Assembly: GCA_009663005.1 (NCBI GenBank) | Contig: CM018914.1 | Span: 10,348,319-10,365,818 of the forward strand | Length of the DNA stretch: 17,500 bases | DNA from: Actinidia chinensis | Lineage: Eukaryota; Streptophyta; Magnoliopsida; Ericales; Actinidiaceae | Direction of reading: 5' to 3' | Shown: one piece after another, positions 11,709-15,003 of the stretch | Layout of the letters: the number at the start of each line of letters is the position of its first letter | Numbering within the stretch: the stretch's first letter is position 1 | Made by a program: the position numbers and the translations under genes | Notes under the pieces: model-generated | Database searches by the model: none | What the model was told of the DNA's origin: nothing | What the model saw: only the letters and a program-made list of their open reading frames with translations

Positions 11709-12514
11709 GAAAACAAAAATTGCAACTACGCTAATGACATCCAGGCAAGAAATGAACTGAGAAATAAAAACAGTGAGCAAGCTGTAAGCATATTTACAAC
11801 AAAGTTATAAATGTTCAAAACTAAGAATATTACAGTTGGGAGAAAAAATCAAAAGCAATGCAAAATCAGACTACTCCGCTGGCTGTGTGTTCGGGTCGCC
11901 TTCATTGACAGTATCTCCTTCAGCTCCCCTAGTCTTCTTGCTTTCACCTTCACCGGCAACCTCTTCTTCTCCTCCCACAAACTCATTGCTCAGAGTCGTA
12001 CCAACCTTAACAACACCACCTCCCTTCTCATCTGTTGCCTAATTCATATACTCCTCTTCATTAAAGCTTGGCAGGATGAGTGGAGAGTAAATCGCGGGCA
12101 GATCCGAGGGCTCAATGGGAGGAGCCGCAACATTCCAAGCTAGGTGATTTGAGGGAACTCTAAGCACTTTAAGGCAGGTGAGCCAACCTTCTTCAAAAAT
12201 GCTTAGACGAAGCTTGGCTACCTATTTCTCATAGGAGTCTCTAGCTCTATTAAAGCCATGGTTAAAAACCGTCTAGAAGACTTCTCCGGAGGCCACTTCT
12301 TAAGCTCAATATTCTCTTGCAGAGTCTTGTTCATTTGCTCTAGTGTAACCTTGGCTTCACCTCGGGCATGAACGATGACCTTCTCTTCCGCATCCAAATC
12401 AAGCTTGGACTATTTCAGCTCATTTTCAAAGATATGGGCCCTTTGATTGGCCTTCTTCAGCTTGGTGGAATACTTCTTTAAGCGTTCTGAGTTCGCCATA
12501 ACTTGCTAGAGGAT

Positions 12515-12590
12515 CTGCAAAACAAACCCAAGAAATTTATTGAATATCATTACAAAATAAAGTAAGGACTGACCGAGCTGGGTAACACAC
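12515..12590 (-). other. Intron 2 of the antisense gene
   Basis: On the minus strand it starts GTGTGTTACCC and ends GGGTTTGTTTTGCAG. It is 76 bases long, T-rich near its 3' end, and falls between complete codons (LIMKGVQ, then IL and the coiled-coil segment). Its removal keeps the frame. Confidence 0.75.
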
Positions 12591-13632
12591 CTGAACGCCT
12601 TTCATGATCAGCTTGTTTTTGAACACCTTCAGGCCCTCCATAGTTAGGTTAGCAACATCTTAGGAGAGCATGATGGCATTCCCCTAGGCCAAACAGGTTT
12701 TATGATCCCTCGAGGAATCAGCATTGGTAACCTACTTCCTTAGCTCAACCACGACAAATTTGGGAACCTAGAGCTCGAAAACACCACCAATCGTTAAGGG
12801 GGTAACCAAGATACCGACACTCCTTCCCCTTTTTGGATGGGAAGGCCCTTCCGCGGGGAGCTTTCCATTCCTCTTGCTAGCTCATTTGGACGGCAGGGCG
12901 CTTAACTAAACCTCTACTGCTAGGTTGGGGAGAGCCAAAATAGGGTCAGGGGCTAGGTGATCGAGCTTAAACCCTGCAACCTTTTTCTTTCCTAGAGCTC
13001 TGAATTTGGGCACCATGCCAACTTCTTCTTCAGAGATTGAACCCAAGCTACCCCTTTGATTGAAAGAGTGACCGATTAAATCTTCAGTAGCGGGTGCAAC
13101 CACTAGAAATCCGAGGTCGTCAGCAGCCTTAATATCCGAGCTTAACATGAGTATGAGCTCGACAACTAAGATTTGGGCTGGAGGGGCAATGGCTAGGGCC
13201 AGGTCTTCAACCTGGTTAACTTCTTCACCGTCTTTGACCTCGGCATCTTCCTCCTCGTCCCATGCTACTTCTTCGCCAACTGCCTCTTCACCCACCTCTT
13301 TTCACTAAGACCAAACAAATCAAAAGACCTCGATCTGCTAAAACCTGTGCTCAGCTCTTCTGCCTTTTCCTTGAGCCACATAAGCTTGGCAACAACACCT
13401 TTAATCAAGTCACTGAACTCTATTGAGAAGGAATGCCTTGGGGTCCACTCGCGAATGCGTATAAAGGGAAGCCTTGATTGCCTCTAGCGGTCAACTCGGT
13501 GAGGGATGACATGGCGGTAAACTGGAATGTAGTTCAGTAACTTGGCAACTTTTCTTGTCTCACAATAATTGGTCATTACCTCGATCACGATGGGGTAGCA
13601 ATTAGATCTCCTCCAGAATTTGGCATTGAATC

Positions 13633-13744
13633 CTACAACAATCAAACCGAGATGGAAGAAATATCAGACCATCAAAAATGAAATAAGTAAAAGATCTACT
13701 TGAAAAATTGAGGTAAGATAAACCAAAAACAAATTTACTCTTAC
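13633..13744 (-). other. Intron 1 of the antisense gene
   Basis: On the minus strand it starts GTAAGAGTAAATTTG (a strong plant donor), is T-rich, and ends GATTGTTGTAG. Removing the 112 bases joins GYVLV and FNAKFWRR through a split AGA codon and keeps the frame. Confidence 0.75.
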
Positions 13745-14362
13745 TAACAAGGACATAGCCCCTAAATCTTGGAAAGAAAAAATAGTCAAGGTCATCATCC
13801 TAGAACTCCCAATTCCTTGAGACCCAAACGCAATCGTCCAGATACAAGTCCTTGTCATGGGGAATTGGTAACCAACCTCGTTTGAGGCTGATTAGGCTTC
13901 CGGAGATGCAAGTAGTGGTTACCAGTGTACATCTGGGTCTCAAGGCCTTTCTTAGTCCTCACTACGCAATATACATGAAGTAAATCCTCGGCGGTGAATT
14001 CTTTGCCTTCCATCTTTATCAGAACGTCTATCGCCAGCACGGTTCAGACAAAATTTATCAAAACTTGCATAAAGGTGAGGTGGCACAAAGCCATGACCTC
14101 CTTCAGTAGACGACTTGTGGGGAATTTCAGTCCGGCCTGGTGGATGAAACAAGTCCGACCAGTACACAATTGCCTTCCTTTCTACCCAATTGGTATCTTT
14201 ATTCGGGCCCAATTTCTCTACTAGAACATCATCTCGGATGTTGTGGTCGGCACAGAATTGAGCTAGGGCCACATCATCATGGACGAACAGTTGAGCATGG
14301 TTCAAATCCATGTTTTGAAAGACAGAAGCAAATGGTGAGAACAAGTTCAACTACAGAGTCAT

Positions 14363-14993
14363 GGCAGACGCAGGCTGCAAAAACTAAGGGACAAAGTTAG
14401 CCGAGCTCTATGTGAGTTACGAGTTCTGTCCCACGAGTTTTTCCTAAGGGAGATTCAACCGAGATCGGTGCAAGCTCTAAAGCTCATTTCAGGGGACACT
14501 AAGTTATAAATGGCATTCAATTGATAGAAGATCAAATCACCCTACTACCTCAAGCTAACCTCGAAAGCAAAAGGATTTGGGGGGTAAACTCGTCTCTATA
14601 AAGCAAACAAGTTAGGATCAACCCGAATAAAAACCCGAAATGCCTAAGCATCCATCAATGGTGGATGGGTGACCATAGATAGACGCAGTGAAAAGACGTG
14701 CAAGTCACTTGACCAAAAAAATTGACGCATAAAAGAAGACCAAAAACTCAAAAAATGAAAAAATAGCAGAAGAAGAATCATATAAGCATGAACAGAAAGA
14801 AATAAAGAAGTTTCTACAAAAAATTACAAATGCAAGACGGAAGGAAGCAACTGTCAATTAAAAAAATGAAAGTAAAATCAGCGTCAGATATAGGAACCGA
14901 CGTAAAAAATGGCAAAAAAATAGTAATGGTGCTCTTTCTCTCTAGAAAACTCTCTGAAAAGTGTTGTGAATAGTGATTGGGGAGATGAACGGG
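14363..14993 (-). other. Presumed 5' leader of the antisense gene
   Basis: About 600 bases lie between the antisense TATA candidate and the first plausible ATG. A lone copy of the 78-bp repeat lies at about 14395-14450 (TTAGCCGAGCTCTATGTGAG, then GAGTTCTGTCCCACGAG). The TATA-proximal part has CTTTTCAGAGAG and TCTAGAGAGAAAGAGC on the minus strand, a typical CT/GA-rich plant leader. Further introns are possible here but could not be fixed. Confidence 0.45.
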
Positions 14994-15003
14994 CTTATAT
15001 AGG
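14994..15003 (-). promoter_or_regulatory. TATA-box candidate of the antisense gene
   Basis: The minus strand reads CCTATATAAGCCCGTTC. It lies outside the LTR, about 300 bases inside it, and points toward the antisense gene. A transcription start is expected about 30 bases downstream, near 14965. No other strong TATA was seen between it and the gene. Confidence 0.55.

Follow-up and report, generated by a model that had tools for sequence, protein, structure and literature searches.

Introduction

The window analysed here, a stretch of 17,500 nucleotides from Actinidia chinensis, contains an LTR retrotransposon for which a preliminary description had placed a spliced gene on the antisense strand. 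This raised the question of whether such a gene is present, and how introns could be kept in an element that is copied through RNA. Plant LTR elements have been described as generally intronless, with Ogre and EVADE as exceptions (PMC12786077). In Ogre, a partly spliced intron separates gag-protease from RT in the sense transcript (PMC6317226), and EVADE forms subgenomic RNAs by alternative splicing (PMC12786077). A review from 2020 called for a search for antisense and spliced transcripts (PMC7264820). The reading presented here, which we consider quite probable, is that a Ty3/gypsy family carries an antisense accessory gene that is split by introns and has been under selection, with a promoter, splicing and a nuclear role that are predicted.

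The Host Element

The following features were identified for the element in the window:

7188..7865, plus strand: 5' LTR (TG...CA), from blastn against the 3' LTR
7615, plus strand: sense TATATAAAG (TATA), within the 5' LTR
8140..9131, plus strand: broken gag, open pieces 8140-8421 and 8553-9131 (PF03732)
9307..9743, plus strand: broken aspartic protease and linker, from weak Pfam matches and tblastn matches in relatives
9707..9708, no strand: deletion point, RT-RNase H-integrase missing, from comparison with L035, L039 and L037
9932..10149, no strand: tandem array with a 75-bp unit, from repeat analysis
11174..11675, no strand: second tandem array, with the same unit as the first (77/156 bp), from repeat analysis
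15308..15960, plus strand: 3' LTR, from blastn against the 5' LTR; the antisense gene begins just interior to it

The LTR pair was aligned by blastn with 85% identity over 493 columns and 78% identity over 167 columns, giving a distance of 0.163 (Jukes-Cantor 0.184). With a rate of 1.3e-8 per site per year, this divergence corresponds to an age of roughly 7 million years. A target-site duplication was sought at the element ends, where the sequences AAATC and AACAC are not identical. Gag matched PF03732 (Retrotrans_gag) with an E value of 0.0012 and 19.4 bits, under the cut-off of 24.1, and is conserved among relatives of the element. The protease region gave weak Pfam aspartyl protease matches (E 0.15-0.17), and contains a DTGSS motif which we take to be that of the aspartic protease.

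By Pfam, no RT, RNase H or integrase was identified in the 15 plus-strand pieces of the window. Relatives carry RVT_1, RVT_3 and rve (RNase H in L035, RT and integrase in L038), and the sequences on the two sides of window position 9707 are separated by 2.7 kb in L035 and by 3.4 kb in L039. The flank of copy L011, designated L037, aligns across position 9707 with 81% identity and 9 gap letters. Positions 5437-5696 of L037 form the stretch which spans the same pol deletion junction as the window. Since the deletion is common to the window and to L011/L037, a pol-less form exists in two copies and has probably spread itself. This suggests that the pol-less form was spread in trans, retaining gag, the protease and the antisense gene.

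The distance from the deletion point to position 15307 is 5.6 kb, which fits the long pol-to-3' LTR region of Retand/Tat elements; for Retand, this region was reported to comprise 2.9-6.6 kb, with tandem arrays in about half of the clusters (PMC11963269). Two further traits of Retand/Tat elements were found in the same region, namely the tandem arrays (9932-10149 and 11174-11675) and an antisense ORF, which is here a split gene in a broken copy. The element is a decayed, pol-less copy of a Tat/Retand-like Ty3/gypsy family, for which membership of the Tat lineage is plausible.

Several other repeats were observed. A single copy of the tandem unit, 82% identical to the reference, is located at 14389-14437, about 2.7 kb from the array and within the antisense leader region. 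A CCACC-rich low-complexity repeat is present at 6195-6344, upstream of the element, and the flanks contain short tandem repeats at 5264-5426 (45-bp unit) and 16460-16554 (39-bp unit). Rfam gave 0 matches.

The Antisense Gene and Its Homologues

For the identification of homologues, the minus-strand open pieces were joined, with X at the breaks, and used as a query. At least 21 proteins were matched with E values down to 6e-89 (7997 candidates scored), and a second search with one matched protein gave 66 proteins (1135 candidates). Altogether 70 distinct homologues were found, 69 of them gene models of Actinidia rufa, which are gene predictions, and the remaining one another ORF; together with the window's own genome, these formed the comparative data. 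A single open piece of 132 aa gave no relatives when used as a query. Scans of viral contigs and genome contigs gave no relatives of the antisense gene, and the scan of viral contigs gave none of gag.

By tblastn, all 70 homologues matched the window, with 347 of 347 HSPs on the minus strand and 0 on the plus strand. The long minus-strand protein which had been proposed from the open reading frames was thereby recovered, and the minus strand from 14311 to 11871 encodes a protein family. The gene consists of the following parts:

13745..14314, minus strand: exon 1, ATG at 14311, two frame breaks, tblastn frames -1, -2 and -3
13858..14157, minus strand: best conserved part, a TRP28-like (PF04195-like) segment inside exon 1
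13633..13744, minus strand: intron 1, 112 bp, GT-AG, from HSP edges, composition and copies
12591..13632, minus strand: exon 2, one frame break, with an acidic middle and an NLS-like stretch
near 12875-12818, minus strand: NLS-like KR...PKRGR, in exon 2
12515..12590, minus strand: intron 2, 76 bp, GT-AG, from HSP edges and copies
11871..12514, minus strand: exon 3, one frame break, with a helical part and an acidic tail, stop at 11873-11871

The segment 14157-13858 shares 68% identity over 100 residues with the A. rufa protein P0005. In exon 1, the frame beyond 14160 was set by tblastn with relatives. The two introns of the originally proposed gene structure were retained. That structure had to be amended by four frame breaks (near 14160, near 13857, between 13304 and 13253, and near 12295), by 14 in-frame stops and by a likely third intron in the leader. 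The window copy of the gene is a fossil.

Parts of the antisense transposon gene are also included in five A. rufa models named as a pyruvate kinase, an insulinase, a MATE transporter, a methyltransferase and a pyruvate dehydrogenase (P0001, P0016, P0018, P0024 and P0050). These are either annotation artefacts or insertions into genes.

Position Relative to Gag and LTR

In the window's own genome (638 Mb), at least 55 matches to the gene region were obtained (40 scored of 244 candidates), and 26 further copies, from both strands, were aligned. The downstream flanks of 20 copies, many of them partly masked, were examined. Gag was detectable in 7 of these, and in all 7 the antisense gene was opposite to gag. 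Of the 26 copies, 8 have at least 60 bp of LTR in colinear position upstream of the antisense gene. A homologous gene is thus found in the antisense position in related elements, as the preliminary description had implied.

It might be argued that an intron-bearing host gene was captured in antisense orientation and is merely carried along by the element. Intron-bearing genes are typical of hosts, and the origin of such antisense regions is treated as open in the survey of Retand elements (PMC11963269). However, a passenger of this kind is very unlikely in view of the many dispersed copies, with LTR or gag adjoining in part of them, and of the contrast among codon positions of the antisense gene (see below), which resembles the one determined for gag-protease (0.223/0.208/0.324 at positions 1/2/3, from the window together with up to 8 relatives). 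An ancient capture may still have been the origin of the gene.

The Introns

Two GT-AG introns had been placed at the junctions 13745/13632 and 12591/12514, and the edges of the HSPs are located there. At the first junction, 15 HSPs end at 13746 and 23 start at 13654, which is 22 bases before the predicted exon 2, BLAST extending slightly into intron 1. At the second, 12588 or 12591 is the end point of 29 HSPs, and for 16 the alignment begins at 12517 or 12505. The T content is 51% in intron 1 and 45% in intron 2, compared to 23-28% in the exons. Away from intron 1, 0 of 2109 windows of 112 bp reached 51% T; away from intron 2, 113 of 2217 windows of 76 bp reached 45% T, so that the composition of intron 2 is not exceptional.

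On the protein level, the sequence GYVx[VI]GFN is found across junction 1 in 25 of 70 proteins, 7 of 70 begin exon 2 from the same base while reading a different frame, and 22 of 70 continue across junction 2. P0068 spans exon 2 and then runs into other sequence at both ends, and is apparently an ORF from unspliced DNA. P0001 and P0012 include translated intron-1 sequence, which shows that the intron is present in the A. rufa DNA of those copies.

In the copies of the window's own genome with both flanks aligned, intron 1 was retained in all 18 testable cases and intron 2 in all 24, so that no loss of either intron was found. For intron 1, 18 of 20 copies have a GT donor and 13 of 19 an AG acceptor; for intron 2, the counts are 21 of 25 and 16 of 24. 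Dinucleotides within the introns match the commonest form in 66% on average. This retention fits the explanation given in the preliminary description: the introns would persist because reverse transcription uses genomic RNA of the opposite strand, where they go unrecognised.

One further reading is that the two segments are not spliced at all, and represent linkers or frame-shifting insertions which were skipped by the gene predictors. The commonest departure from the AG acceptor is AA (5 of 19 copies for intron 1, 7 of 24 for intron 2), and overlaps of more than 30 bases were seen for 11 HSPs with intron 1 and for 9 with intron 2, which would speak for this reading. Against this stand the T-richness of intron 1, the canonical sites in most copies, and differences by phase of 0.291/0.241/0.233 and 0.239/0.275/0.220 in the two introns, which have no exon-like codon rhythm. 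In addition, both lengths in the window are not divisible by three, so that retention would break the frame. Unspliced segments therefore appear highly improbable.

Purifying Selection on the Protein

The absence of purifying selection had been named in advance as a finding that would speak against the gene. For the analysis, the window and 26 copies were aligned over 728 codons, and pairwise differences were determined on these broken copies. The differences at codon positions 1, 2 and 3 were 0.265/0.223/0.379, a ratio of 1.56 reached in 0 of 2000 permutations, and the third position was the highest in 7 of 7 segments. With transversions alone, the values were 0.086/0.079/0.116 (ratio 1.40, 0 of 2000 permutations), and in 3 of 7 segments (e1a, e1c and e3a) the third position no longer ranked highest. 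In columns in which the commonest base is A or T, the differences were 0.169/0.133/0.374, with 0.18 for the introns. Since the rhythm persists in these columns, methylation-driven C-to-T change is not its cause.

The median dN/dS was 0.28, compared to 0.72 and 0.94 in the shifted frames, as determined for the 340 pairs, out of 351, that share at least 150 codons; all 340 values in the coding frame were below 1. By exon, values of 0.25, 0.29 and 0.29 were obtained. Stops make up 2.2% of the codons, and 5.7% and 7.9% in the shifted frames. Taken together, these values, although measured on broken copies, clearly point to purifying selection on the antisense protein in the past.

When 13 disjoint closest pairs were compared, dN/dS was lowest in the coding frame for 9 of them. 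The four exceptions (L006-L008, L021-L030, L014-L020 and window-L004) are all among the six closest pairs, and have dN/dS values of 0.41-0.67, where the better of the shifted frames has 0.37-0.50. For the six pairs of the 13 that are furthest apart, 0.31-0.45 was obtained. This pattern fits a neutral decay after insertion on top of a constrained ancestry, which is expected of dead copies and is no proof of it.

A functional product might also be the antisense RNA itself, acting by pairing with the genomic RNA, through small RNAs or in self-restraint, the protein being irrelevant. Such a role has been discussed for antisense retrotransposon transcripts (PMC7264820). An RNA of this kind would not account for the codon-position pattern, the low dN/dS and the fewest stops in one frame, so that there is only a slight chance of the protein being irrelevant; the RNA may act additionally. 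That the rhythm stems from an overlapping sense-strand gene, as one of the plus-strand frames might suggest (median dN/dS 0.71, 1.09 and 0.39), can be given almost no credence, since the frame with 0.39 shares the wobble positions and contains 4.5% stops against 2.2%, and none of the 347 HSPs maps to the plus strand.

Candidate Promoter and Leader

Upstream of exon 1, three further features were assigned:

14995..15001, minus strand: TATA box candidate TATATAA, about 300 bp interior to the 3' LTR and outside of it
14879..14968, minus strand: candidate leader exon, with an SDTD-like motif in A. rufa models
14315..14878, minus strand: candidate leader intron, with mutations at both splice sites in the window copy

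The TATA candidate outside the LTR which had been pointed out previously was found at 15001-14995. It is the only TATAWAA in the 7.4-kb interior on either strand; by chance, 0.9 are expected on the minus strand, and at least one occurred in 60% of simulations. The site is covered by 8 copies, with TATNTAA in 7 and TATATAA in 1. The region upstream of the antisense gene diverges like the LTR (0.275 and 0.280). The TATA box is thus weak evidence for a promoter.

Sequence ahead of the MALN-type start is present in 29 A. rufa models, and in 14 of them it ends in an SDTD-like motif, as judged by eye. A third intron in the leader, from 14878 to 14315, is likely from these models; splice-site support in the copies is weak, the donor GT being present in 4 of 6 and the acceptor AG in 6 of 14.

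P0001 and P0069 hold translated sequence which matches the LTR edge in antisense (window 15331-15122). This might represent an alternative upstream exon, or a start near the LTR as in HTLV.

The Predicted Protein

In the 15 antisense pieces of the window, Pfam identified no family at the cut-off, PF04195 included (0 of 15). The best matches on these pieces, PHBC_N (E 0.0027) and PMT2_N (E 0.0095), were below the cut-off and were taken as chance. PF04195 is the Pfam family matched by most relatives, under threshold: at E 0.1 it was found in 0 of 10 relatives, and sub-threshold matches were obtained in 4 of 14 and then in 12 of 31, the best with an E value of 0.0036. Scores were 12.5 bits for P0006 and 12.2 bits for P0004, with a cut-off of 26.2. 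The conserved positions of TRP28 are G21, P25, L34, P46, N47 and F55 (PMC11963269). The pattern G-x3-P-x8-L-x12-N was found in 27 of 70 proteins, and all six TRP28 positions in 0 of 70. An NLS-like basic pattern, defined by ourselves, was present in 26 of 70.

An AlphaFold model of P0004 (31 rows) had a mean pLDDT of 49.6, and a long helical stretch at 425-546 in this poor model would fit a coiled coil. No solved structure matched the protein profile at E 0.1. By analogy to the published view of this class of proteins (PMC7264820, PMC11963269), we infer a nuclear accessory role.

From these data, the following pathway can be proposed. The accessory gene, which is situated between the pol region and the 3' LTR, runs opposite to gag-pol, and an internal promoter just interior to the 3' LTR would give rise to an antisense pre-mRNA. 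The host spliceosome would remove two, probably three, introns. The mRNA would be translated into a nuclear protein with a divergent TRP28-like N-terminal domain, a basic NLS-like stretch, a coiled coil and an acidic tail, and this protein would act on the element, whose transcription or nuclear phase of the life cycle is the most likely target.

Comparison to Known Systems

Antisense TRP28 ORFs are known in Retand-lineage elements (Vicient 2025, PMC11963269). Like these, the gene described here is antisense between pol and the 3' LTR and is accompanied by tandem arrays; non-autonomous forms exist for Retand as they do here, and a DNA-binding role was proposed there. It differs from the Retand ORFs by its two conserved introns, the word "intron" being absent from the available text of that paper, and by a TRP28 match below the Pfam cut-off. 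For gene23 of the maize element Grande, which is likewise antisense between pol and the 3' LTR, a promoter of its own upstream and a nuclear protein were reported (review PMC7264820). In Grande, promoter and localisation were measured, while here the candidate TATA and the NLS-like pattern are derived from sequence. Introns of gene23 are not mentioned in the available text of the review. In common bean, ORF2 was identified in 15 Ty3-gypsy families, with an SMC-like domain in some of them (Gao 2014, PMC4093653). ORF2, too, is inverted relative to the polyprotein and is found between the latter and the 3' LTR; unlike the gene in the window, it is described in terms of ORFs, and "intron" is absent from the available text.

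Spliced antisense genes for a regulatory protein are present in human retroviruses, namely HBZ in HTLV-1 and APH-2 in HTLV-2 (Barbeau and Mesnard 2011, PMC3185765). The likeness is that of a spliced antisense gene in an element copied via sense RNA, and no kinship of the proteins is claimed. In HTLV, antisense transcription starts inside the 3' LTR (PMC3185765), whereas the TATA candidate and the candidate leader exon described here are outside of it. With Ogre and EVADE, the element would share functional introns in a plant LTR retrotransposon, the Ogre intron being sense and the present ones antisense (PMC6317226, PMC12786077).

Antisense accessory genes, and one with its own promoter, were thus already known, the conserved introns are a variant of them, and no first report is claimed. 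The principle is not new either, because spliced antisense genes are known in HTLVs (PMC3185765). Conserved introns in an antisense accessory gene were not found in the literature searched, in which older work was covered in part. The oddness that had been seen in introns of an element copied through RNA is softened by the promoter of Grande gene23 and by the HTLV genes, and the placing of introns in such an element stands.

Implications

A wider interpretation, which is tentative and rather doubtful, would be that in a clade of plant LTR elements the antisense strand is a refuge for a spliced nuclear regulator maintained by selection, with introns that are functional and cannot be lost by retrotransposition, since the RNA that is copied comes from the opposite strand. 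Under this interpretation, the introns may serve in export, in boosting expression or in distinguishing the antisense mRNA from the genomic RNA, and even pol-less parasitic copies may have retained the antisense gene.

For the annotation of such elements, a split antisense gene can be fragmented or missed by surveys of uninterrupted ORFs such as the one on Retand, in which ORFs of at least 600 bp were counted (PMC11963269). The 69 models found here suggest that many "hypothetical proteins" of A. rufa are transposon genes. The family gives exact junctions for RNA-seq, and the evidence for selection indicates that the protein matters, and not the RNA alone. It also represents a natural case of introns persisting through retrotransposition.
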